Assembly (NCBI RefSeq): GCF_015209595.1
Contig: NZ_JADEYS010000008.1
Coordinates: 1-64,000 of the forward strand
Direction: 5' to 3'
Source of the DNA: Pontibacterium sinense
Lineage (GTDB): Bacteria > Pseudomonadota > Gammaproteobacteria > Pseudomonadales > Balneatricaceae
DNA: 64,000 nucleotides
Below are positions 40,717 to 53,541 of this stretch, piece by piece. The notes beneath the pieces were generated by a model that saw only the letters and a program-made list of their open reading frames with translations, was not told the origin of the DNA and made no database searches. How positions within the stretch are numbered: position 1 is the stretch's first letter; the number at the start of each line of letters is the position of its first letter. The position numbers and the translations under genes were made by a program.

Positions 40717-40757
40717 CCGCGCCTTCTAAATTGTTGAATGTTCCCGAATTCCAGACC

Positions 40758-41672
40758 ATGACTGAATCCGCCGCTGTAGAATCACCTGAAAAGAAAATTA
40801 AAGTCCGCACGAACAAGCTGCAGAAACGTCTGCGCCGTGAAGTGGGCCGTGCTATCGAAGACTTCAATATGATTGAAGATGGCGACAAGGTGATGGTATG
40901 CCTGTCCGGCGGTAAAGACTCCTATGCCATGCTGGATATCCTGCTGAACCTGCAGAAAAGTGCGCCGATTCATTTTGATATTGTGGCGGTGAACCTGGAT
41001 CAGAAGCAGCCGGGTTTCCCTGAACATATCCTGCCGGAATACCTGGAATCGATCGGTGTGGAGTTCCACATCGTTGAGCGCGATACCTATTCCATCGTGA
41101 AAGAAGTGGTGCCGGAAGGTAAAACCACCTGCGCGCTTTGCTCCCGTTTACGTCGTGGTACGCTCTATGGTTTTGCTGAAGAAATTGGTGCGACGAAGAT
41201 CGCGCTGGGCCATCACCGTGACGACATTCTGGAAACCTTCTTCCTGAACATGTTCTACGGCGGAAAACTGAAGTCGATGCCACCTAAGCTGGTATCCGAT
41301 GACGGCAAAAACATGGTGATTCGCCCACTGGCCTATGCCCGTGAGAAAGATATTGCTGAGTATGGTGACCTGAAGCAGTTCCCGATCATTCCGTGCAACC
41401 TGTGTGGTTCGCAGGAAAACCTGCAGCGTCAGGTGATCAAAGAGATGCTGAACGGTTGGGATAAGTCTAATCCGGGTCGCATCGAAACCATGTTCCGTTC
41501 GCTGCAAAACGTAGTGCCTTCCCATCTGGCCGATACAAATCTGTTCAACTTCAAAGAACTGCAGAAGGGTTACGCGCATGGTATCGCCGGTGATAGTGTG
41601 ACTAATCACTTCGATCCTGAGCAGCCGCAGGCGGAAAAGATGCCAGAGATGATTGATATCCTGGCACTGTAA
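40758..41672 (+). CDS. ttcA: tRNA 2-thiocytidine-32 biosynthesis protein TtcA
   Basis: A 304-residue PP-loop ATPase that thiolates C32 of some tRNAs, using a [4Fe-4S] cluster. The PP-loop motif is [13 protein letters not shown]. The cluster ligands are the Cys residues of [16 protein letters not shown] and, further on, [31 protein letters not shown] is the other family block. The ATG at 40758 (MTESAAVE) fits the family; an in-frame TTG at 40731 would add ten residues. The gene is transcribed away from the SulP gene. Confidence 0.95.
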
Positions 41673-41726: not shown

Positions 41727-42905
41727 GTGAACATGAACGTTGTTCTGCTATCCCTGTGTCAAGCATTACTGACCACAGGGAACATCCTGTTAGTGTCTGT
41801 CACGGCTTTGATTGGCCGTGATATGGCGCCAAGTGCGGCACTCATCACCTTGCCGGTTGCGATGCAGTTTGTTGGTCTGATGGCTGCGACCATTCCTGCA
41901 TCGCTGGTGATGAAGCGAATCGGACGTAAGAACGGTTTCTATCTCGGTACCACCATCGGAATTGCGGGTGCGTTCACCTGTATCTTCGCCTTAGATGGCA
42001 ATCAGTTTGATCTCTTCTGTTTGGGTACCTTCCTACTGGGTATCGGTATCGGGTTTGGCACCTTGTATCGCTTTGCCGCCGTCGAAGTCTGTGCTCCCGA
42101 TCAGAAGAACCGCGCGATCTCCATGGTCATGGCCGGTGGTGTATTGGCGGCGGTCGCCGGACCTGCACTGGCGGTATCCAGTCAGGGCTGGGTCGAAGAC
42201 ATCCCGTTTCAGGGCGCGTTTATCGGTCTGTTAGGGTTGTACATCATTGCGTTGCTCTTACTCAGCCTGATCCGTATTCCGCCAGTGAGTGCCGATGAAC
42301 ATCACGGTGAGGCGCGTCCGATCGCTGAGATCATCAGCCAGCCCAACTTTATCGGTGCTGTTGTTGCCGCAATGGTGGGCTATGCAGTGATGAACCTGCT
42401 GATGACCGCCACGCCGCTGGCTATGCAGCGCTGTGGTTATAGTTTTGGTTCGGTTGCCAACGTAATCGAATGGCACGTTTTAGGTATGTTTTTACCCTCG
42501 TTTTTTACTGGATCACTCGTTAATCGTTTTGGCATTAAACCGATGATCTATAGCGGTGCCGTGCTGATTATGGGTTGTATCGCGATTAATATGACAGGCA
42601 CCAGTGAATGGCATTTCTTTGCGGCGTTGTTGCTGTTGGGTGTGGGCTGGAACTTCATGTTTATTCCGGCAACCCAGTTGCTGACAGGCACCTATAAACC
42701 GGCTGAGAAAGCCAAATCACAGGCCGCCAATGAGTTTCTGGTGTTTGGTGTTGTAACGTTATCCGCGTTGACATCCGGCTGGCTGGAAGACGCTTTGGGT
42801 TGGTTTACGATGAACTGGATGATGTTGCCAGTAGTACTCTGGGCCGTGGCTGTGGTGTACTTAATGGATAAGAAAGCGAAAGCAACCGTTTCCGCGGTCA
42901 GCTAA
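41727..42905 (+). CDS. MFS transporter
   Basis: A 392-residue major facilitator superfamily permease with 12 predicted membrane helices. The motif-A-like loop lies at KRIGRKNGFYLGTT between helices 2 and 3. FLLGIGIGFGTLYRFAAVEV is helix 4, and GVGWNFMFIPATQLLTGTYK lies late in the second half. The cargo cannot be told. The GTG at 41727 is favoured because GAGGT lies 8 bp upstream; the ATG at 41733 is more distant. It lies between ttcA and the GFA gene on the same strand, 24 bp ahead of the latter. Confidence 0.85.
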   Translation: MNMNVVLLSLCQALLTTGNILLVSVTALIGRDMAPSAALITLPVAMQFVGLMAATIPASLVMKRIGRKNGFYLGTTIGIAGAFTCIFALDGNQFDLFCLGTFLLGIGIGFGTLYRFAAVEVCAPDQKNRAISMVMAGGVLAAVAGPALAVSSQGWVEDIPFQGAFIGLLGLYIIALLLLSLIRIPPVSADEHHGEARPIAEIISQPNFIGAVVAAMVGYAVMNLLMTATPLAMQRCGYSFGSVANVIEWHVLGMFLPSFFTGSLVNRFGIKPMIYSGAVLIMGCIAINMTGTSEWHFFAALLLLGVGWNFMFIPATQLLTGTYKPAEKAKSQAANEFLVFGVVTLSALTSGWLEDALGWFTMNWMMLPVVLWAVAVVYLMDKKAKATVSAVS

Positions 42906-42929: not shown

Positions 42930-43334
42930 ATGGCTAAAATTACCGGCAGCTGTTTGTGCGGCAAAGTTAAGTTTCACTGTGAGAATCAATTCACTCAGTT
43001 TCACTTGTGTCATTGTGAGCTCTGTCAGAAAGTCACTGGCAGTGCGCATGCATCCAATCTATTCACAGTGCATGACAATATCATCTGGCTGCGTGGGTAT
43101 GCGTTCGTAAAGCGCTTTGATGTACCGGGGTGCTCAATGGCCCATGCATTTTGCGTCGAGTGTGGGTCTGCCATGCCGCGTCTGTCAGGAAAAGAGAAGT
43201 TGTTGGTTGTACCGGCGGGAAGTTTGGATAGTCAGGCTAACATCGCACCGCAGAGTAATATCTGCTGGGATGAACGCGCTAAATGGTATGACGATGCATT
43301 GAATGCACCTCACATTGACGGTGTACCCGAATAG
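42930..43334 (+). CDS. GFA (CENP-V) family zinc-binding protein
   Basis: A 134-residue small protein of the glutathione-dependent formaldehyde-activating/CENP-V family. Zinc ligands are in SCLCGKVKFHC, FHLCHCELCQKVTGS and FCVECGSAMPRL. Most members have no proven formaldehyde activity and are named only by similarity. GGGAG lies ahead of the ATG. The gene follows the MFS gene closely and precedes the Nmad3 gene by 40 bp. Confidence 0.88.
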   Translation: MAKITGSCLCGKVKFHCENQFTQFHLCHCELCQKVTGSAHASNLFTVHDNIIWLRGYAFVKRFDVPGCSMAHAFCVECGSAMPRLSGKEKLLVVPAGSLDSQANIAPQSNICWDERAKWYDDALNAPHIDGVPE

Positions 43335-43374: not shown

Positions 43375-44223
43375 ATGAAGTTAATCCTAAGCCGTAAAGG
43401 CACCGACTCCAGTGCAGGTGGGCTCCCCAGTCCTATCCTGCCTGATGGTCGTTTGCTCTCGTTACCCATTCCCCAGGATGACGCGACCACTCAATACTCC
43501 CATCTCATAGCGGGTAAGCAGAGTCTGTCCAGTCTGATTAAGCAGCTCGGCGGTAAACAGTGGCGCAGCGGCTGTCATCTGGACCCGGATATCGATCCAT
43601 CCTTAATTGTTGATACGGAGAGCTGGTTGCCCGCGTTTGGTCAGTTTGGCTCAGCCCAGCGACACCTGGAGCACGAAGGCGTGGGTGTCGGGGATCTATT
43701 TCTGTTCTTCGGTTGGTATCGACAGACTGAACGGGTGAAAGGCCGGATGCAGTTCGTTAAAGGTGCCCCAGATATTCACCTGATCCATGGCTGGATGCAG
43801 GTCGGTGAGATTATTCATCCCTCCCCGGAGGTGCTTGAGCAGTATCCGCTGTTGGCTAATCATCCCCATATGCAAAAGGATTACGCCTTCAACACCCTCT
43901 ACCTGCCGTCACCTCAGCTGTCCATTGCCGGTGAGGTGCTGCAACACGCGGGGTATGGGATGTTTCCAGCGTATGACGAGCAGCTGCAACTCACCACCCC
44001 GGGCGAAAATCGCACCCAGTGGACGCTGCCGGATGTCTTCTATCCCGATGATTTTGCTGACGGGCTGAGTTATCACCGCCAACCTTGGCGCTGGAATCGG
44101 CGAGAGCATGACGTGCAATTGAAGGCTGCGGCCCGTGGGCAGGAGTTTGTATTGGATCTGGACAAGCAGCCTGCGGTGAATGACTGGCTCAGCCAGTTGT
44201 TTCTATCCATTGAAAGGCGCTAA
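43375..44223 (+). CDS. Nmad3 (nucleotide modification associated domain 3) protein
   Basis: A 282-residue protein matching Nmad3. The start MKLILSRKGTDSSAGGLPSP and then ILPDGRLLSLPIPQDD are the family signature. GVGVGDLFLFFGWYRQTE, IHGWMQVGEIIHP, HPHMQKDYAFNTLYLPSPQL and WTLPDVFYPDDF are further conserved blocks. The domain was defined by comparative genomics as linked to nucleic-acid base modification, mostly in phages and bacteria. No enzyme activity is established. No modification genes, restriction enzymes or phage genes are visible nearby. The neighbours are MFS and GFA genes upstream, small unknown ORFs downstream and recC further on. Confidence 0.78.
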   Translation: MKLILSRKGTDSSAGGLPSPILPDGRLLSLPIPQDDATTQYSHLIAGKQSLSSLIKQLGGKQWRSGCHLDPDIDPSLIVDTESWLPAFGQFGSAQRHLEHEGVGVGDLFLFFGWYRQTERVKGRMQFVKGAPDIHLIHGWMQVGEIIHPSPEVLEQYPLLANHPHMQKDYAFNTLYLPSPQLSIAGEVLQHAGYGMFPAYDEQLQLTTPGENRTQWTLPDVFYPDDFADGLSYHRQPWRWNRREHDVQLKAAARGQEFVLDLDKQPAVNDWLSQLFLSIERR

Positions 44224-44284: not shown

Positions 44285-44503
44285 ATGAAAAGTTACCTAT
44301 TTGCGACTGAGAACGAACGTGGCGGTGTAATCCTCTGTGATATCGATACGCTGGAAGAGGCGGTTGAATATCTGCAACAACGCTTTGATGGTGTTGTGCG
44401 GGTTGAGCAGGGCCGCAGTTACTGGTGTATCAAAGAAGGCTTCGCTGAGCTACCTCCCGCACAAGATGCGACCAATGCGCCACCTACCGGAACGACGCCT
44501 TAG
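44285..44503 (+). CDS. Small hypothetical protein
   Basis: A 72-residue protein without signal peptide. It has a strand-helix pattern (KSYLFATENERGGVILCDID, TLEEAVEYLQQRFDGVVRVE) and a Pro/Thr-rich tail. GGGGG lies 5 bp upstream of the ATG. I do not recognise it. It ends tail to tail with the minus-strand gene at 44500. Confidence 0.55.
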   Translation: MKSYLFATENERGGVILCDIDTLEEAVEYLQQRFDGVVRVEQGRSYWCIKEGFAELPPAQDATNAPPTGTTP

Positions 44504-44901: not shown

Positions 44902-47900
44902 ATGTTTCGCATATATCACTCGAATGCACTGGATGTGCTTAAGGATCTGCTGGTTGAGCTGATCCGGCTGGACCCGCTGACCGATCCGTTTGCACAGGAA
45001 ACTATTCTGGTGCAAAGCCCGGGTATGGCACAGTGGCTGAAGCTGGAACTGGCACAAGCGCAGGGCATTGCCGCGAGCGTTGATTTTCCGCTACCGGCGT
45101 CCTTCCTCTGGAAGAGTTTTTCTGAGGTATTGGAGGGGGTGCCTGAACGTTCGGCGTTTAATAAAGAGGCGATGACCTGGAAGTTGATGGAGCTGCTGCC
45201 TTCTGAGTTAGACCAGCCGGAATTCAGTGATCTGCAACGTTATCTGGCGGCGGATCAGGGGAACTTTAAGCTCTACCAGTTGTGCGGCAAAATCGCTGAT
45301 ACGTTTGACCAATATTTGGTGTATCGCCCGGATTGGATAGCGGACTGGGAGCAGGGTGGTCAGCTGGCCGCTGAGACCCAGCCATGGCAACCGGTGCTGT
45401 GGCGTGCGCTGGTAGAACGGACACGTGATTCTGGCCAGGCTCATTGGCATCGTGCCAATATGTTCTCTGAATTTGTCTCGGCATTAGGCAGAGCCCGTGG
45501 TCAGGCGGGGTTACCCACGCGGTTGTTTGTCTTTGGTATCTCCGCGTTACCGCAAAACTACCTTGAAGCCCTGAATGCGATGGGGCAAAAGATCGATGTA
45601 CACCTGATGGTTACCAACCCATGTCGTTACTACTGGGGTGAGATTCTGGATCAGGGGCAGATCGCCCGTCTTAACCGCAGCTGGTTTGATAAGCCGGGTA
45701 CAGATCTGGGCAACTACTTCGAGCATGGTAATCCTCTACTGGCATCGATGGGCAAGCTGGGTCGTGATTATCTGGTGCAGTTGCAAGAGCTTAAAGCACC
45801 GGAGATTGAAGCGTTTGCCGATATCGACCGTGACAGTCTGTTGCACCAGATGCAGGCGGATATTCTGGATCTGGATGATCGGGCACGTTTCCCAACTCAG
45901 CCGGATGGTTTCCAGCAGAGTGTTCATAAAACGCCAATCAATGCAGACGATACTTCGATTCAGTTGCATGGTTGTCATAGCCCAATGCGGGAAGTGGAGG
46001 TGCTACACGATCAGCTGCTGGCGATGTTTCAGGCTCAACCTGAGTTGTCGCCACGTGATGTGATTGTGATGATGCCGGATGTGGCAACCTACGCACCCTA
46101 CGTGGATGCGATATTTGGCAATGCGCCGCCGGATCGTTATATCCCGTTCTCTATTTCTGACCGTTCTGCACAGCAGGAAAACCCGCTGTTGCAGAGCTTC
46201 CTGCGTTTCATCGCACTGGCGAATAGCCGTCTGACCGTCTCTGAAGTACTGGAATTATTGGAAGTCCCCGCCGTGATGCGTTGCTTCGGGCTTGATCAGG
46301 AGGGTTTTCACCGGATTCGTCACTGGGTGGCAGAGGTGAACATCCGCTGGGGATTGGACAGCAATCAACGCAGCCAATGGGATCTGCCGGAGTTTGAGCA
46401 GAACAGCTGGCAGTTTGGTTTGCAGCGTATGCTGGCCGGTTACGCATTGGGTGACAGTGACGACCTCTGGTCGGGTATCGCACCCTATGGTGAGGTCGAG
46501 GGGCTGGAAGCCGATCTGCTGGGTAAACTGGCGGATTTTGTTGATCTGCTTGGCTTTTGTACCGAACGTTTTAAGGGTGAACAGACACCTGAGAGCTGGA
46601 TTGAGCTGATCAATGAGCTGCTGGTACGCAGCTATCAGCCGGATGAATTAGATGAAGTCGCGTTGGATCAGGTGCGTAAGGTACTGGCCCAGCTGCAGGA
46701 ACAGATTAGCGATGCGGGATGGAGCGCGCCCCTATCGATTGAGGTGTTGTGTGATTACCTAAACAACGGCTTAGACAGCGCCCGGTCCAGTCAGCGGTTT
46801 ATGGTGGGGGCGGTGAACTTTTGTACCTTGATGCCGATGCGCTCGATTCCATTCAACGTGGTTTGCCTGCTGGGTATGAACGATGGCGATTACCCCCGCA
46901 CTATGCCGCCGATTGGCTTTGATCTGATGGCCGATCAGGTACGCCGGGGGGATCGTTCCCGCCGTGATGATGACCGTTATCTGTTCCTTGAAGCGGTGCT
47001 TTCAGCGCGGGAAAAGCTCTATGTCAGCTATGTTGCCCGCTCAATTCATGACAACACGGAAAAAGTGCCGTCTGTTCTGGTGAGTGAGCTGGTGGAGTAT
47101 CTGGCGCAGGCCTATGTGATGCCGCATAACGTTGATCTGGATATGGACAGCAGCGCCGAAGCGCTGAAAACCGCGCTTTTGACCGAGCATCCGTTGGCAC
47201 CGTTCAGTCGTGACTATTTTAGTGTGGATTCGGATTACTTCAGTTATGCCTCTGAATGGCTGGTGGCGGCTGCCGCTGAGCAGCAAACCCCGGCGAGTTT
47301 TGTATCTGCACCCTTGGAATCAGATACGCCGACTGAGTTGGAATTGTCTGATCTGCTGCGTTTCTTCCGTAATCCGAGTCGCTATTTTTTCACCCAGCGC
47401 TTAAAAGTGCACTTTGAAACCCGTGAATCAGGTGCCGAAGATGATGAGCCGTTTAAGGTGGAAGGGCTGGATGATTACCAGCTGAAACAGCGGTATCTGG
47501 CAACGGCGCTGGCCGGTGAGTCTCTGGATCAGGTGGATGCCTGGATTCAGGCGGAAGGGCTGCTGCCGGTCGGGCAGAGTGGTTATCAAAGCTTGAACAA
47601 GGTACGTAAAGATTGTTCAGAGCTGGCGGAGAAACTGGAACCGCTGATGACGGAAACGGCGCGTCGCCGCGAGATCCGCATCAAGTTCCCGAATTTAACC
47701 AAACTACGGCTGACCGGATGGCAAGACGGTTGGCACGGTTCCACACTGCTGCGCTATCGTCCGGCGCAAGTGCAGGGTTACGATCGTTTGTTTGGCTGGA
47801 TCGAACATCTGTGTGCCTGCGCCTGTTTTGGCGATACGCAGGCCACCATTCATCGAGGATTGTCGGCACAGCTGACCTTTCATCCGCTGAGTCGTGATGA

Positions 47901-48198
47901 GGCCACGCAAAAGCTGGAAGTGTTAGTAAATCTGTATCTGGAAGGTCTGCAACGCCCTCTGGCGTTTGAGCCGGGTGTCGGCTGGGCGTATCTGTCGGTG
48001 CTGGAGAAAGGTGAAGACCGGGCGCGAGTTGCCGCGCAGACCCGTTTTGAAGGTGGTTTTAACAGCTACGGAGCGATTGAAGATCCGTACCTGCGCCGGG
48101 TTTATCCACAATACAGCGCATTTGAGCCGGGTTTAGTGCCGCTGACGGAGCAGGTGTTAGCCCCGATGCTGCCGTGGCTGGAAGAAGGTAAGGAGTAA
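44902..48198 (+). CDS. recC: Exodeoxyribonuclease V subunit gamma, RecC
   Basis: A 1098-residue RecC, the Chi-scanning subunit of the RecBCD helicase-nuclease that processes double-strand ends. It starts MFRIYHSNALDVLKDLL and has ETILVQSPGMAQWLKLELAQ with GIAASVDFPLPASFLW after it. DRYIPFSISDRSAQQENPL and FCTLMPMRSIPFNVVCLLGM with NDGDYPR are also present. All are characteristic RecC segments, and the length is as usual. It heads the recC-recB-recD operon, 7 bp before recB. There is no ptrA between recC and recB, unlike in E. coli. Confidence 0.97.
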   Translation: MFRIYHSNALDVLKDLLVELIRLDPLTDPFAQETILVQSPGMAQWLKLELAQAQGIAASVDFPLPASFLWKSFSEVLEGVPERSAFNKEAMTWKLMELLPSELDQPEFSDLQRYLAADQGNFKLYQLCGKIADTFDQYLVYRPDWIADWEQGGQLAAETQPWQPVLWRALVERTRDSGQAHWHRANMFSEFVSALGRARGQAGLPTRLFVFGISALPQNYLEALNAMGQKIDVHLMVTNPCRYYWGEILDQGQIARLNRSWFDKPGTDLGNYFEHGNPLLASMGKLGRDYLVQLQELKAPEIEAFADIDRDSLLHQMQADILDLDDRARFPTQPDGFQQSVHKTPINADDTSIQLHGCHSPMREVEVLHDQLLAMFQAQPELSPRDVIVMMPDVATYAPYVDAIFGNAPPDRYIPFSISDRSAQQENPLLQSFLRFIALANSRLTVSEVLELLEVPAVMRCFGLDQEGFHRIRHWVAEVNIRWGLDSNQRSQWDLPEFEQNSWQFGLQRMLAGYALGDSDDLWSGIAPYGEVEGLEADLLGKLADFVDLLGFCTERFKGEQTPESWIELINELLVRSYQPDELDEVALDQVRKVLAQLQEQISDAGWSAPLSIEVLCDYLNNGLDSARSSQRFMVGAVNFCTLMPMRSIPFNVVCLLGMNDGDYPRTMPPIGFDLMADQVRRGDRSRRDDDRYLFLEAVLSAREKLYVSYVARSIHDNTEKVPSVLVSELVEYLAQAYVMPHNVDLDMDSSAEALKTALLTEHPLAPFSRDYFSVDSDYFSYASEWLVAAAAEQQTPASFVSAPLESDTPTELELSDLLRFFRNPSRYFFTQRLKVHFETRESGAEDDEPFKVEGLDDYQLKQRYLATALAGESLDQVDAWIQAEGLLPVGQSGYQSLNKVRKDCSELAEKLEPLMTETARRREIRIKFPNLTKLRLTGWQDGWHGSTLLRYRPAQVQGYDRLFGWIEHLCACACFGDTQATIHRGLSAQLTFHPLSRDEATQKLEVLVNLYLEGLQRPLAFEPGVGWAYLSVLEKGEDRARVAAQTRFEGGFNSYGAIEDPYLRRVYPQYSAFEPGLVPLTEQVLAPMLPWLEEGKE

Positions 48199-48205
48199 GG
48201 CAAGG

Positions 48206-51200
48206 ATGAGTGATCTGATTCCACTACAACCGCTGACATTCCCTTTGCACGGTGTGCGCCTGATTGAGGCGAGTGCTGGTACCGGGAAAACATACACCAT
48301 TACAGCGCTCTATCTGCGTTTACTGCTGGGACATGGTGATCAAGGCCCTGTACGCCCATTGGGGCCTGATCAAATTCTGGTGGTGACTTTTACCGAAGCC
48401 GCAACCGAAGAGTTGCGCGACCGCATCCGTGTGCGTATCGCCGAAGCCCGTCAGGCCTTTATGCTGGCGCTGAACTGGCAGGAAGTAAAAGATCTGTTCT
48501 TGAGTCAGCTGATTGAAGCGATTGAGGATAAAGAGGCTGCGGTGAAGCTGCTGGAGCAAGCCGCCCAGCAGATGGATGAAGCCGCGATCTTCACCATTCA
48601 CGGCTTCTGTCAGCGGATGCTTAAACGCCATGCCTTTGAAAGCGGTGCGCTGTTTGAGACCGAGTTGACCCAAGACTCCCAGCGTTTGTTGCATCAGGCG
48701 GTGATGGACTTCTGGCGTAACGAGATCTATCGCATGGAGGCCGGTATCGCCTCGGCCGTGCTGCATTTGTGGAAAACGCCGGTGGATCTGGGTAAAGATC
48801 TAAACGGGTTCTGGAACTCACCGGAACTGCGTTTGCAGCCGGATCTGTCGGAGCAAAATCTGACCGAGCTGTTTACGCAGTTCCAGAGTCTGTTACAACG
48901 CTTTAAGGCGCTCTGGTTGTCACAAGGCGGGGACCTGGAAGCATTGATCCGCGATTCGGGTGTCAGTAAACAAAGCTATCGTAAAAATCTGCTGCCGAAC
49001 TGGTTGGCTAAAATCGGTGAGTTTTGTGAAACCGACAGTTCGGTGCTGGATAAAAAGCTGGTCGGAGTGCTGGAGCGTTTTCAGCAATCACGATTGCATG
49101 AAAAATCGCCCAAAGGTAATCCGCCAGAGCATGAGTTGTTCCGCCTGACCGAAGAGCTGTTGGAAGCGCGGGTGCCTGTGCGTGAAATTATGCTGGCCCG
49201 AGCATTTCGTGATGTACGTCAGCGCTTTAATCAGCACAAAGCGCAGCACAATTTGCTCACATTTGATGACCTGTTGATCAACCTGGATCGTTCTCTGAGT
49301 CAGGATCAATCCGGATTATTGGCCTCGGCTATTCGCACGCAGTTCCCACTGGCGCTGATCGATGAGTTTCAGGATACCGACCCGATGCAGTATCGCATCT
49401 TCAGTCAGATATACGCCGCAGTACCGGATGAGGAAGCGCAGGCGCCGGGGCTGGTGATGATCGGTGATCCTAAGCAGGCGATCTATGCCTTCCGTGGCGC
49501 GGATATCTTTACCTATATCCGTGCGCGGCGTCAGGTAGATGCACCCTATACGCTGGATACCAACTGGCGCTCGACGTCACGGATGGTGGAGTCCGTTAAC
49601 CGGATTTTTGAAACGGCACAGGCGCCGTTTATCTACGAGCAGGATATTAAGTTCCAATCGGTGAAGGCGGGCGGTAAATCCGATAAGAAACCCCTTCAGA
49701 TGGGTGGGAAAGCGCTGCCCGCGATGACGTTCTGGTATCAGGACGATGACGCACCGATCAATCGCAATACCTACTTCACCCGCTTCGCCCGCTCGACCGC
49801 AGTGGAGATCGAACGTCTGCTGGCTGGTGATACCTCGATGGGTGATCAGCCGCTGGCGGCGGGAGATATCGCGGTGCTGGTGCGTGATCGTTATGAAGCC
49901 GATGCGATCCGCACGGCGCTGACAGAATTTCAGCGACCTTGTGTGTACCTGAGTAATCGCGAAAGTGTATTTGCCACACAAGAAGCTCTCGATATGTTGT
50001 TGCTACTGCAGGCGGTGCAGGAGCCAAACAACGAACGTTTTGTCCGCGCGGCGTTGGCGACGTCCGTATTGCAGCTGGATGTCGAGGCTCTGGATCGCCT
50101 CAACCATGACGAGCGCGCATGGGAAGCGGCGGTGGCGGAATTTACGGAATACCAGCAGGTGTGGTTGCGGTTAGGTGTGTTGCCGATGCTGCACCGCTTA
50201 CTGCAACGGCGCAAGCTCTCTGAATTGATGCTCTCCCGTGCAGATGGCGAGCGGCGTCTAACCGACCTGCTGCATCTGGGTGAGCTGTTGCAAACCGCAA
50301 GTACAGAAGTTGAAGGCACTGCGGGTCTGTTGCGTTGGTATGCGGAGAAGCTGAACAGCCCCAACGGTAGCTCGGAAGATCAGCAGTTGCGTTTGGAGAG
50401 TGATCGTAATCTGGTGACATTAGTTACGATCCATAAATCCAAAGGTCTGGAATATCCCGTTGTCTTCCTGCCATTTCCCTGTGCGATGAAAGAGAGCAAG
50501 CAGGCTCTTTACCACGACGACAGTGGTGAAACCGTGGTGGACTTACAGGCCTCGGACGAGGCGATGGCAAAAGCGGATGAAGAGCGCCTGGCGGAAGATC
50601 TGCGCTTGCTTTATGTCGCCCTGACCCGTTCGGTGTACGCCTGCTATATGGGTGTAGCGGACGTGAAAGTGGGCCAGAAAAAAGATCAGTTACGCCGCAC
50701 CGCACTGGGTTATCTGTTGTTGCAGGAAGAGCGTGAGTTGGATGAGGCGATGGCCGGTATACCAGCGCTTTCAGCAGCGATTACCGTATTGGAACCGCCG
50801 CAAAGTGCCCCTCAGATCGATCTGTTTGCCGCAGAACCTGAAGCCAAACCGGAGCTGCAGGTCCGCACCTTTAAAGGCCGGATTAAACGTGACTGGCGGG
50901 TGACCAGTTACTCGGCACTGAGCAGTCATGGCAGCGGTTATCAACTGCCGGAGTTGCCGGGTTTGGATCTGGAGGTGGCAGGTGAAGAAGCGGAGGTCGC
51001 TGAGCCGGAACAGACGATCTTCAGTTTTCCCAAAGGGGCTCGTGCCGGTACGTTCTTGCACGCCGTGTTTGAGGATCTGGACTTCCCTACGGCAGGCGGA
51101 CCGGAGCTGGATGAGTATCTGCAAGAGCGCCTGACGCTGGAAGGTTATGAAACCGACTGGACACCGGTACTGAACTCACTCGTGGCAGATGTACTGGACA

Positions 51201-51730
51201 GTGATCTGGACGGTCAGGGGCTACGGATGCGAGATCTCACCGCGCAGGACAAACTGGTGGAGATGGAATTTATGTTGCCAGTGAGTGGTCTGGACTGCGG
51301 TGCACTTAATCAATTGGTACGCGCAGAAGATAATCTGTCAGCGCAGGCAGGGCTGCTCTCCTTTGATCAGGTGAACGGGATGTTAAAAGGCTTTATCGAC
51401 TTGGTATTCCGCCATGAAGGCCGGTATTACGTGCTCGATTACAAATCCAATTATCTCGGCGGCACACATGATGCGTATACCCAAGAGGCGATGGCGGGTG
51501 CGATGATTGACCACCGCTATGATCTTCAATACCAGCTTTATACGCTGGCGCTACACCGTCTGTTGCAGAGCCGGATACCGGATTATAACTACGAAGAACA
51601 TATGGGCGGTGTTTTCTATCTCTTCCTGCGAGGGATGGGGCAGGGGGATCATGGTGTTTTCCATTGCCGTCCTGATGCGGGCTTTATCGAGCAGCTGGAT
51701 CAACAGTTCCGAGCAGGAGAAACCGCATGA
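48206..51730 (+). CDS. recB: Exodeoxyribonuclease V subunit beta, RecB
   Basis: A 1174-residue RecB: a 3'-5' superfamily 1 helicase with a C-terminal nuclease. Walker A is in EASAGTGKTYTITALYLRLL; other helicase motifs are LLTFDDLL, LIDEFQDTDPMQYRIF, GDPKQAIYAFRGADIFTY and VTIHKSKGLEYPVVFLPFP. The nuclease site is intact: IDLVFRHEGRYYVLDYKSNY carries the Asp and Lys ligands. The start at 48206 lies just after recC; the stop overlaps recD by 4 bp. Confidence 0.97.
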   Translation: MSDLIPLQPLTFPLHGVRLIEASAGTGKTYTITALYLRLLLGHGDQGPVRPLGPDQILVVTFTEAATEELRDRIRVRIAEARQAFMLALNWQEVKDLFLSQLIEAIEDKEAAVKLLEQAAQQMDEAAIFTIHGFCQRMLKRHAFESGALFETELTQDSQRLLHQAVMDFWRNEIYRMEAGIASAVLHLWKTPVDLGKDLNGFWNSPELRLQPDLSEQNLTELFTQFQSLLQRFKALWLSQGGDLEALIRDSGVSKQSYRKNLLPNWLAKIGEFCETDSSVLDKKLVGVLERFQQSRLHEKSPKGNPPEHELFRLTEELLEARVPVREIMLARAFRDVRQRFNQHKAQHNLLTFDDLLINLDRSLSQDQSGLLASAIRTQFPLALIDEFQDTDPMQYRIFSQIYAAVPDEEAQAPGLVMIGDPKQAIYAFRGADIFTYIRARRQVDAPYTLDTNWRSTSRMVESVNRIFETAQAPFIYEQDIKFQSVKAGGKSDKKPLQMGGKALPAMTFWYQDDDAPINRNTYFTRFARSTAVEIERLLAGDTSMGDQPLAAGDIAVLVRDRYEADAIRTALTEFQRPCVYLSNRESVFATQEALDMLLLLQAVQEPNNERFVRAALATSVLQLDVEALDRLNHDERAWEAAVAEFTEYQQVWLRLGVLPMLHRLLQRRKLSELMLSRADGERRLTDLLHLGELLQTASTEVEGTAGLLRWYAEKLNSPNGSSEDQQLRLESDRNLVTLVTIHKSKGLEYPVVFLPFPCAMKESKQALYHDDSGETVVDLQASDEAMAKADEERLAEDLRLLYVALTRSVYACYMGVADVKVGQKKDQLRRTALGYLLLQEERELDEAMAGIPALSAAITVLEPPQSAPQIDLFAAEPEAKPELQVRTFKGRIKRDWRVTSYSALSSHGSGYQLPELPGLDLEVAGEEAEVAEPEQTIFSFPKGARAGTFLHAVFEDLDFPTAGGPELDEYLQERLTLEGYETDWTPVLNSLVADVLDSDLDGQGLRMRDLTAQDKLVEMEFMLPVSGLDCGALNQLVRAEDNLSAQAGLLSFDQVNGMLKGFIDLVFRHEGRYYVLDYKSNYLGGTHDAYTQEAMAGAMIDHRYDLQYQLYTLALHRLLQSRIPDYNYEEHMGGVFYLFLRGMGQGDHGVFHCRPDAGFIEQLDQQFRAGETA

Positions 51731-53541
51731 GTGAATTATTGTCGGTCCTCCGTAGCCGGGTTGATGCCGGTGAACTGCGCCCGCTGGATTATCAGTTTGG
51801 TCGTTTTTTGCAACAGAAAGGTGCACCTGATCTGGCGGTTCTTGCGGGTACGTTGGTCAGCGCTGAACTGGCGCAGGGCAATGTGTGTCTGGTGTTGTCC
51901 CGGTTGCCAGAGTTGTCGCCTGAGCTGAAGCAGCTGACAGTGCAGTTGGGACTATCAACGCTGGGCCTGCATGCGCAGATCATCGGTGACGGCTCTGAAA
52001 CAACGCCACTGGTGTTAAACGGTGACCGCCTCTATCTGCACCGTTATTGGTCGTATGAGGTGATGATTGCCGCCAGTTTACATACCCGGGCGGCACGCTC
52101 GGATGTGGATCTTGAGACACTCAGGTCCGGTCTGAATAAATTGTTCGGTCGTCAATCCGGTGAACCGGACTGGCAGAAAGTGGCAGCAGCCATTGCTGCT
52201 CAGCGACGTTTTTCAGTGATTTCCGGTGGACCAGGAACGGGTAAAACCACCACTGTGACCAAACTGCTCGCGCTGATCTGTGAGCAGAGCCTGCAACTGG
52301 GACGTGAACCGGTGATTAAATTGGCTGCGCCAACCGGTAAAGCCGCCGCACGCCTGTCTGAATCGATTGCCGGTGCGGTGAGCAAACTGCCGTTGTCGGT
52401 TGAGCAGCGCGCTTCAATTCCGGCGGACGCGAGTACCCTGCATCGGTTACTCGGTGTTATACCAAACAGCCATAGCTTCCGTCATAACGCCGAGAATCCC
52501 TTACATCTCGATCTGCTGGTGGTGGATGAGGCATCGATGATCGATCTGCCGATGATGGCGCGGTTGCTGGATGCTTTACCGGACAGTGCCCGGTTAATCC
52601 TGATCGGAGATCGGGATCAGCTGGCGTCGGTTGAAGCGGGCAGTGTCTTGGGTGATATCTGTCGTTGGCCGGGTGAGGTGGGGTATTCGGTGGAGCAGGC
52701 GAAAATATTGTCAGCGCTGTGCGATATCAGTGCTGCAGATATTTCTCAGAATTACCCGTCCCCCTTAGCAGATTCTGTGGCGTTACTACGTAAAAGTTAC
52801 AGATTTCATGATCAGAGCGGTATTGGGCATCTGGCACGCGCCGTTAATACCGGAGATGTGGCGCGTTTTACGCAAGTTCTGAAAAGCGCCAATTACGGTG
52901 ATATCGAGCTCAATCCACTGACCAGTGAAGGTTATGCTGCACTGATTGCCCGAGCGGTGGATGGCTATAGTCATTACCTGCGCTGTGTGGATGACAACGC
53001 TGCGCCGGAGCATATTCTGGCTCAGTTCAACCGCTTACAGCTACTTTGTGCACTGCGGGAAGGGCCCTACGGTGTGGCGGGGCTAAACGAAACGATTCGT
53101 AGTGCATTAGCGAAACGTCGGCTGGTGTCCAGCGAAGGCCAGTGGTTTAGCGGTCGCCCGGTGATTATCACCCGCAATGATTCTGTGATGGAGTTATATA
53201 ACGGTGATATCGGTATCACGCTGCCTGACGAAGACGGCAATCTTCGGGTTTGGTTTGAACAGTCAGGTCGGATGCGTGCGGTGTTGCCCAGCCGGTTACC
53301 TGAACACGAAACCGTGTTTGCGATGACGGTACATAAAAGTCAGGGATCAGAGTTTGAGCAGGTACTGTTGTTACTGCCGCCAGATGACAGCCCGGTACTG
53401 ACCCGTGAGTTGCTCTATACAGGGATTACACGTGCTAAACAGTCGTTGGCATTGTACGGGACAGACCGGGTGTTCAGGCAAGCGACGTTGCGGCCTACCG
53501 AACGTAACGGTGGTTTGGCTGATCGATTATGGCAGATGTAA
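51727..53541 (+). CDS. recD: Exodeoxyribonuclease V subunit alpha, RecD
   Basis: A 604-residue RecD, the fast 5'-3' helicase of RecBCD. Walker A is GGPGTGKTTTVTKLL. Other motifs are LAAPTGKAAARLSESI, LLVVDEASMIDLPMMARLLD, LIGDRDQLASVEAGSVLGDI, and near the C-terminus AMTVHKSQGSEFEQVLLLLP with LYTGITRAKQSLALYG. It completes the operon and is followed by a hairpin terminator at 53563. Confidence 0.97.
   Translation: MSELLSVLRSRVDAGELRPLDYQFGRFLQQKGAPDLAVLAGTLVSAELAQGNVCLVLSRLPELSPELKQLTVQLGLSTLGLHAQIIGDGSETTPLVLNGDRLYLHRYWSYEVMIAASLHTRAARSDVDLETLRSGLNKLFGRQSGEPDWQKVAAAIAAQRRFSVISGGPGTGKTTTVTKLLALICEQSLQLGREPVIKLAAPTGKAAARLSESIAGAVSKLPLSVEQRASIPADASTLHRLLGVIPNSHSFRHNAENPLHLDLLVVDEASMIDLPMMARLLDALPDSARLILIGDRDQLASVEAGSVLGDICRWPGEVGYSVEQAKILSALCDISAADISQNYPSPLADSVALLRKSYRFHDQSGIGHLARAVNTGDVARFTQVLKSANYGDIELNPLTSEGYAALIARAVDGYSHYLRCVDDNAAPEHILAQFNRLQLLCALREGPYGVAGLNETIRSALAKRRLVSSEGQWFSGRPVIITRNDSVMELYNGDIGITLPDEDGNLRVWFEQSGRMRAVLPSRLPEHETVFAMTVHKSQGSEFEQVLLLLPPDDSPVLTRELLYTGITRAKQSLALYGTDRVFRQATLRPTERNGGLADRLWQM

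Follow-up and report, generated by a model that had tools for sequence, protein, structure and literature searches.

The 64,000-nucleotide stretch of Pontibacterium sinense DNA analysed here (the window) holds, at 43375..44223 on the forward strand, a gene for a 282-residue protein with an ATG start, and the question it raises is what an Nmad3 protein does where it stands by itself. The Nmad name originates from a genomic link to nucleic-acid modification systems. A reading made from the sequence alone had called the protein Nmad3, and the profile search bore this out: PF18754 (Nmad3) matched over its entire length (profile positions 1-247 of 247, 244.1 bits against a Pfam cut-off of 27, E 2.2e-72). 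Nmad3 was the only family matched in the Pfam scan, the EVE profile (PF01878) giving no match, and a single copy was found in the 4.64-Mb window genome. NCBIfam, PHROGs, PADLOC and the PDB gave no match to the sequence at the thresholds used. PDB relatives by sequence were rejected, the search returning nothing or presumed chance matches only (best E 0.017, an antibody chain). The copy in the related genome G004 differs by a dN of 0.031 and a dS of 0.30 (dN/dS about 0.10), and Nmad3 is therefore under selection; dN/dS against the G002 copy was 0.15, at a dS of 1.47 that is near saturation. The neighbouring MFS gene (dN 0.007, dS 0.42, dN/dS 0.017 against G004) and the GFA gene (dN/dS 0.024 against G004) gave lower ratios. 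The open reading frame is thus a real, intact gene of an unstudied family, under purifying selection that is less strict than that on the adjacent MFS gene.

Our literature search returned no tested function for PF18754 or for PF18753 (Nmad2) and no relevant paper naming either. Within the literature searched, the word Nmad3 occurred only in a mango study, where it presumably denotes something else, and no characterised member was found; in the main text of the EVE census (PMC7641849), as available, the word Nmad is absent. Phage Nmad5, compared here by name and description, shares the Nmad name; it is reported in thymidine-hypermodification cassettes (PMC9476957), and an Nmad5 mutation has been tied to escape from Tmn defence (PMC11846954).

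We compared the surroundings of Nmad3 at 106 loci, 101 of them distinct once five double fetches (L001, L012, L013, L014 and L100) were set aside. Nmad2 was the only neighbour cluster that combined a range of many phyla with a place immediately next to Nmad3 on the same strand. It lay directly beside Nmad3, on the same strand, at 17 of the 101 distinct loci, a fraction that is not a census, as the genome-contig part of the set comprises the best 80 of at least 295 relatives and some of the contigs are short. At 16 loci Nmad2 was upstream of Nmad3 and at L031 downstream, often with an overlap of a few bases. Sixteen of the 17 came from clustering, and all of these matched a profile built from 15 of them (the L058 partner matched PF18753 at 1.8e-51); the seventeenth, at L094, was added by Pfam as a weak match (27.3 bits against a cut-off of 26.1) that our own Nmad2 profile missed at 1e-4. 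Our own simple-scoring gene calls missed some Nmad2 genes that the neighbour clustering listed. L094 (7311-9550) is a viral contig with Nmad2-like, Nmad3 and DUF1643 genes in a row, and on a Burkholderia stagnalis plasmid (L157, 6968-8028) an Nmad2-like frame overlaps the 3' end of Nmad3. Several other neighbour clusters were discarded as partners: the two widest lay wholly on the opposite strand and were apparently mainly antisense frames, the MFS, ttcA and small-ORF clusters were shared only within the window's relatives, and the LysR, ABC and enoyl-CoA hydratase clusters were large families at scattered distances.

At 84 of the 101 distinct loci the stretch examined showed no Nmad2 next to Nmad3, and to stand alone is a common state of the gene. 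The window copy, which the sequence-only reading had described as stand-alone, does lack the companion of some of its relatives: no Nmad2 gene adjoins it, and a search of the whole window genome with PF18753 gave no match, whereas G054 and G062 were positive in the same search, the other 14 of the 16 further Nmad3 genomes searched being negative. On the best tree of Nmad3 (104 rows, 101 of them different, built by a quick method) the paired and solo states need at least 10 changes, against a mean of 16.0 in shuffles of which 0 of 500 were as low, and the starred branches alone force one change. The distribution suggests that the pair has likely been made or broken repeatedly. Nmad2 was found in 5 of 398 phylum-sample genomes, three of which (G162, G260 and G336) were not Nmad3-positive, and at L152, L153 and L154/L155 it had no Nmad3 within the stretch examined. 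Because Nmad2 also occurs where no Nmad3 is seen, neither protein depends strictly on being paired. At L152 (1462-2615, genome G336) Nmad2 directly follows, on the same strand, a ThsB-like TIR gene, and another frame (3-530) looks TIR-like by eye.

An AlphaFold model of Nmad3 was built from 10 sequences (pLDDT 87.9, pTM 0.89). Taking strands 2-7, 88-90, 108-121, 134-147, 174-178 and 258-261 and helices 51-57 and 92-100 as the core, the predicted order of elements fits the beta-alpha-beta-alpha-beta4 core described for EVE domains (PMC7641849), if the further elements (e.g. strands 19-21, 124-127, 194-196, 215-219 and 240-250 and helices 151-167 and 266-281) are treated as insertions or additions. 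In VIA-align, a DALI-like comparison, the best match was PH1033 (Z 6.9, 136 residues aligned, rmsd 4.1), and 29 of the first 32 rows were EVE, McrB-N, ASCH or YTH domains, including several that we take to be EVE, the exceptions being two DrmAB rows and 2kku; ASCH and YTH rows stood at Z 5.8 and below. The Nmad2 model (pLDDT 91.0) was closest to YTH (best Z 7.2), which filled ranks 1-34 and was followed by ASCH, McrB-N and EVE; these made up 48 of the 50 rows listed, and the other two were DrmAB. All Z values for both proteins were below 8, the range in which the tool warns of common arrangements. Foldseek searches of the PDB with the Nmad3 model gave nothing at E 1e-3 (best E 0.095); the top six ranks, none significant, were held by CXorf40A (ASCH), THYN1, McrB-N and PH1033, and lower ranks brought PUA-type chains together with unrelated chains, among them DNA polymerase gamma and PylRS. 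Against viral models, ASCH-domain proteins ranked first, fifth and fourteenth (best E 0.026, none significant), and the Nmad2 model had no significant Foldseek match.

Profile comparison pointed in the same direction, though not conclusively. Among 99 hhalign comparisons with Nmad3, EVE had the lowest E (0.026), followed by Nmad2 (0.032), and the best of 97 decoys reached 0.046; by raw score one decoy (22.2) exceeded both Nmad2 (22.1) and EVE (21.3). Column-permuted EVE alignments scored as high as EVE in 6 of 100 cases, and the sequence similarity to EVE is not significant; that between the Nmad2 and Nmad3 profiles was weak (P 0.021 in one comparison and 0.032 in another), with 0 of 100 permutations as high. 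Though each match is weak, the models of both proteins agree on one superfamily in two libraries, which makes a PUA-like fold persuasive. The reading of Nmad3 as a PUA-superfamily-like protein, closest in shape to EVE and with insertions, is therefore supported by the models, though not proven. This assignment was not found in the literature searched; it may be known to the authors who founded the Nmad families. The EVE domain (PF01878; THYN1, PH1033 and the VcaM4I EVE domain) shares its core order with the Nmad3 model and provides its best structural neighbours, but Nmad3 is about twice as long, with insertions, an SRKG-x-D motif in the first loop and additional HLDPD and HPH motifs; the ASCH and YTH domains likewise resemble the models, at moderate Z, without a sequence match. 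EVE itself was found in 15 of 57 relatives of the window genome and in 0 of 5 genomes of its genus. Residues 13-129 of chain A in 7s9v/7s9w, which lie N-terminally in DISARM DrmA, also matched both the Nmad2 and the Nmad3 model, at Z 5.7-5.8, and may hold a PUA-like domain.

We next consider the residues that the family keeps, measured over 81 non-redundant sequences; all positions given lie on the forward strand. The SRKG-x-D motif (codons 6-11, 43390..43407) follows strand 1 of the model (residues 2-7), and S6, R7, K8, G9 and D11 are invariant. The HLDPD motif (codons 68-72, 43576..43590), an insertion relative to EVE, is conserved at H68 (1.00), D70 (0.99), P71 (0.99) and D72 (0.93). A third segment, W..P..GQ..AQ.HL...GDLFLFF (codons 84-112, 43624..43710), spans helix 92-100 and the start of strand 108-121, and within it hhalign weakly pairs AQ.HL..GDLFLFF of Nmad3 with QARN..L..GD..FFY of EVE. 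Further downstream are the histidine at codon 135 (43777..43779; 0.99), the HPH motif (codons 163-165, 43861..43869; 1.00, 0.99 and 1.00) and the QE pair (codons 256-257, 44140..44145; 0.99 each), which the model places just ahead of strand 258-261. Among charged or polar positions, R7, K8, D11, H68, D70, D107, H135, H163, H165 and E257 are invariant or nearly so.

The VIA-align alignments of the Nmad3 model to PH1033 and to 2eve both begin at residues 1-2, and on this basis SRKG-x-D would sit where EVE domains hold a base-contacting loop; W84, GQ90 and AQ.HL98 would take the position of the EVE helix. An EVE domain binds a modified base by flipping it into a pocket, with Q10, T11, E15, P24, W82 and Y130 involved in VcaM4I (PMC7897488). 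As the predicted loop and helix of Nmad3 appear equivalent to parts of that pocket, we favour recognition of a modified base. Nmad3 would recognise one particular modified base in DNA or RNA, in a predicted pocket centred on the invariant SRKG-x-D loop and the W..GQ..AQ.HL helix. In paired lineages Nmad2, with its YTH-like model, lies beside Nmad3, and the two would for that reason probably share a nucleic-acid target or join in a complex. In the window's clade, Nmad3 would have been inserted upstream of recBCD, between the MFS gene and a small ORF, and selected as a solo reader, its purpose perhaps being to sense foreign modified DNA or to read an RNA mark. The window genome itself had no match to the DNA methylase families PF00145 and PF01555, for which 10 and 11 of 14 control genomes were positive, so a host DNA mark of those kinds is an unlikely target, and a foreign DNA base or an RNA base remains. 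We give about an even chance to this joint reading, in which Nmad3 of the window is a PUA-like solo protein recognising a modified base and Nmad2 is its co-acting partner elsewhere; that a modified base is bound, which base it is and what the cell gains are all extrapolated from the models. The nucleic-acid-modification role proposed from the sequence alone thus stays the leading guess, for which the models now give a structural reason, while the phage link that came with it was not supported, as described below.

Because many polar residues are invariant, the strongest competing reading is an enzyme of the same fold. Nmad3 would then be a hydrolase or nuclease on a PUA-like scaffold whose target, to be removed or cut at, is a modified base or a free modified nucleoside, with a putative, possibly metal-binding, site made of H68-x-D70-P-D72, H135, H163-P-H165, E257 and the SRKG-x-D loop. 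Over the 81 sequences, ten or more charged or histidine residues are invariant or nearly so, which would suit such a site, and PUA-like enzymes exist: the ASCH proteins YqfB and ZmASCH are reported to be an N4-acetylcytidine amidohydrolase (PMC6972931) and a ribonuclease (PMC5615036), respectively. In Hahella, a MazG-like gene lies 4 bp downstream of Nmad3. However, searches of Pfam, NCBIfam and PDB sequences showed no likeness to a known enzyme family, and we regard catalysis as possible rather than probable.

The spread of Nmad3 bears on its purpose. All 5 genomes of the window's genus that were examined carry it, as do 10 of 57 relatives, 9 of 398 phylum-sample genomes and 6 of 274 class-sample genomes (own genome included in the last three counts). 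Among at least 295 relatives in genome contigs, the 80 best stem from Gammaproteobacteria, Planctomycetota, Acidobacteriota, Poribacteria, Chlorobi, Cyanobacteria, Chloroflexi and further lineages, including one metagenome-assembled genome labelled Woesearchaeota, and lineage counts drawn from them are likewise no census; a DNA-level search of E. coli genomes gave no match. In the tree the Marinobacter copies form three separate clades, which is evidence for horizontal spread, the deeper forks that part them being unstarred; copies from Halomonas and its kin form two neighbouring clades, with Vreelandella apart. The family had been linked to phages, and this link was not borne out: no relative of the window protein was found in 50,697 phage records (tblastn, E 0.01), nor of the viral-contig copy L098 in the same number (E 1e-3), no PHROG matched, and the viral contigs of IMG/VR yielded 8 loci. 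Nmad3 is not a usual phage gene, and a phage origin of the window copy was rejected on the empty phage-record searches. Only 2 of 72,556 plasmids carry it, both very large.

Neighbour scans in other lineages were descriptive, covering proteins of 100-900 residues from which probable false frames were dropped by hand and of which the first 25 families were listed (80 of 82 listed proteins within 5 kb at paired loci; 136 of 149 within 3 kb at 28 hand-picked solo loci). At individual paired loci a TOTE primase-polymerase, GmrSD_N, PLD helicase or type II methylase gene is close by, and AAA_21 occurs in 4 of 80 neighbours of paired loci; paired loci also hold housekeeping genes. Around solo copies the neighbour families are mostly housekeeping (first 25 of 186 listed), and one solo Nmad3, at L018, adjoins a GmrSD_N gene; Halomonas elongata has a solo copy at L035. 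Some copies have DNA-repair or RNA-modification genes beside them, which look suggestive at most: in Onishia and Halomonas a DinG-like helicase, in Litchfieldella an AP-endonuclease-type gene that we take to be Nfo, and further a PolA-type gene, an RNA methyltransferase and DUF488. On two viral contigs (L095, 3320-5585, and L096) Nmad3 lies 125-150 bp after a ParB/N6_N4-methylase gene, identified by Pfam in L095 and by similarity in L096.

Such surroundings raise a rival on the level of purpose, namely that Nmad3 serves anti-phage defence, detecting hypermodified phage DNA either by itself or together with Nmad2. This reading overlaps both molecular readings, and its odds are not to be added to theirs. 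Consistent with it are the patchy spread in the phylum and class samples, the three Marinobacter clades, the defence-type neighbours at some paired loci, the ThsB-like TIR gene beside a lone Nmad2 and the appearance of an unspecified Nmad domain in the DefensePredictor list (predicted and unvalidated; PMC13092281). Solo copies, however, lie largely among housekeeping families, and all 5 genus genomes carry the gene. PADLOC at E 0.01 returned 0 families for the window Nmad3, the L058 Nmad2 and four window neighbours. Its models also hit near solo copies, with 64 families among 136 proteins compared with 55 among 80 at paired loci (a descriptive comparison in which one protein may match several models). 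We therefore hold a defence role as tentative.

The locus itself is largely as first described. Eight window proteins, from ttcA to recD, were scanned with profiles, and the rest of the window was covered at the level of its list of open reading frames. Upstream of Nmad3, all on the forward strand, lie ttcA (40731..41672), an MFS transporter gene (41727..42905; PF07690) and a GFA-family gene (42930..43334; PF04828). Downstream are an ORF of 72 residues (44285..44503) with no Pfam, NCBIfam or PADLOC match and then recC (44902..48198), recB (48206-51730) and recD (51727-53541), each an NCBIfam equivalog; recC starts 678 bp past the Nmad3 stop, in agreement with the roughly 680 bp given before. 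None of the eight products is a DNA methylase or phage protein, in agreement with the first description. The companion statement that no base-modifying enzyme is near fails for RNA, because ttcA, which ends 1.7 kb upstream in the same direction, encodes the tRNA 2-thiocytidine(32) synthetase (NCBIfam PRK10696.1 equivalog, 499.9 bits against a cut-off of 272; PF01171).

Synteny suggests how Nmad3 came to this place. The order ttcA-MFS-Nmad3 is common to the window genome (G000), G002, G003, G004 and G011; the GFA gene stands between MFS and Nmad3 only in G000 and G004 among 29 MFS loci compared, and the small ORF follows Nmad3 in G000, G002 and G004. In G014 and G018 (loci L128 and L136) MFS is followed by the small ORF and recC, and tblastn at E 1e-4 shows no intervening Nmad3, G018 carrying its Nmad3 elsewhere in the genome, and G019 has ttcA and MFS without Nmad3. 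Since two relatives keep that order without it, Nmad3 was probably inserted as a single gene between the MFS gene and the small ORF in the window's clade, loss in the others being the alternative, and its neighbours say little about its role. For the same reason a significance of the nearby recBCD genes is not supported, and functional coupling of Nmad3 with recBCD or MFS was rejected. In several related genomes the 72-residue ORF itself keeps its place, with MFS (or Nmad3) on one side and recC on the other. As for the modification link behind the family name, ttcA alone is nearby and is placed independently of Nmad3, and other lineages vary.

That Nmad3 works with its present neighbours, e.g. 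TtcA in tRNA thiolation or RecBCD, is accordingly very unlikely: ttcA and MFS do lie upstream in five genomes and the small ORF after Nmad3 in three, but Nmad3 is missing from this site in G014 and G018 and from beside ttcA and MFS in G019, lies elsewhere in G018 and on a different contig from MFS in G001, a member of the window's genus, is followed by a gene other than recC in G003, and has quite different neighbours in other lineages. Least probable of all is that the window gene is a decaying, functionless remnant of an Nmad2-Nmad3 pair, as the missing Nmad2 would allow, for its frame and motifs are intact, its dN/dS is about 0.10-0.15 and 5 of 5 genus genomes examined keep it.

Modified-base recognition by a PUA-like Nmad3 thus remains our preferred reading. 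A PUA-superfamily fold, if true, would give the mere label "nucleotide modification associated" the content of a binding hypothesis that can be tested. The recurrent Nmad2-Nmad3 pair is a natural two-gene cloning unit, and if the ligand were a phage-type or rare RNA base, Nmad3 could serve as a reader reagent. For the family as a whole, we put forward, as a speculation that we would more readily doubt than defend, that Nmad2 and Nmad3 form a two-protein modified-base module, one YTH-like and the other EVE-like, side by side in many phyla and one of them with an enzyme-like invariant site, such that one would read and the other act on the same mark, and that the solo Nmad3 of marine Gammaproteobacteria may have been turned to a purpose kept by the host.
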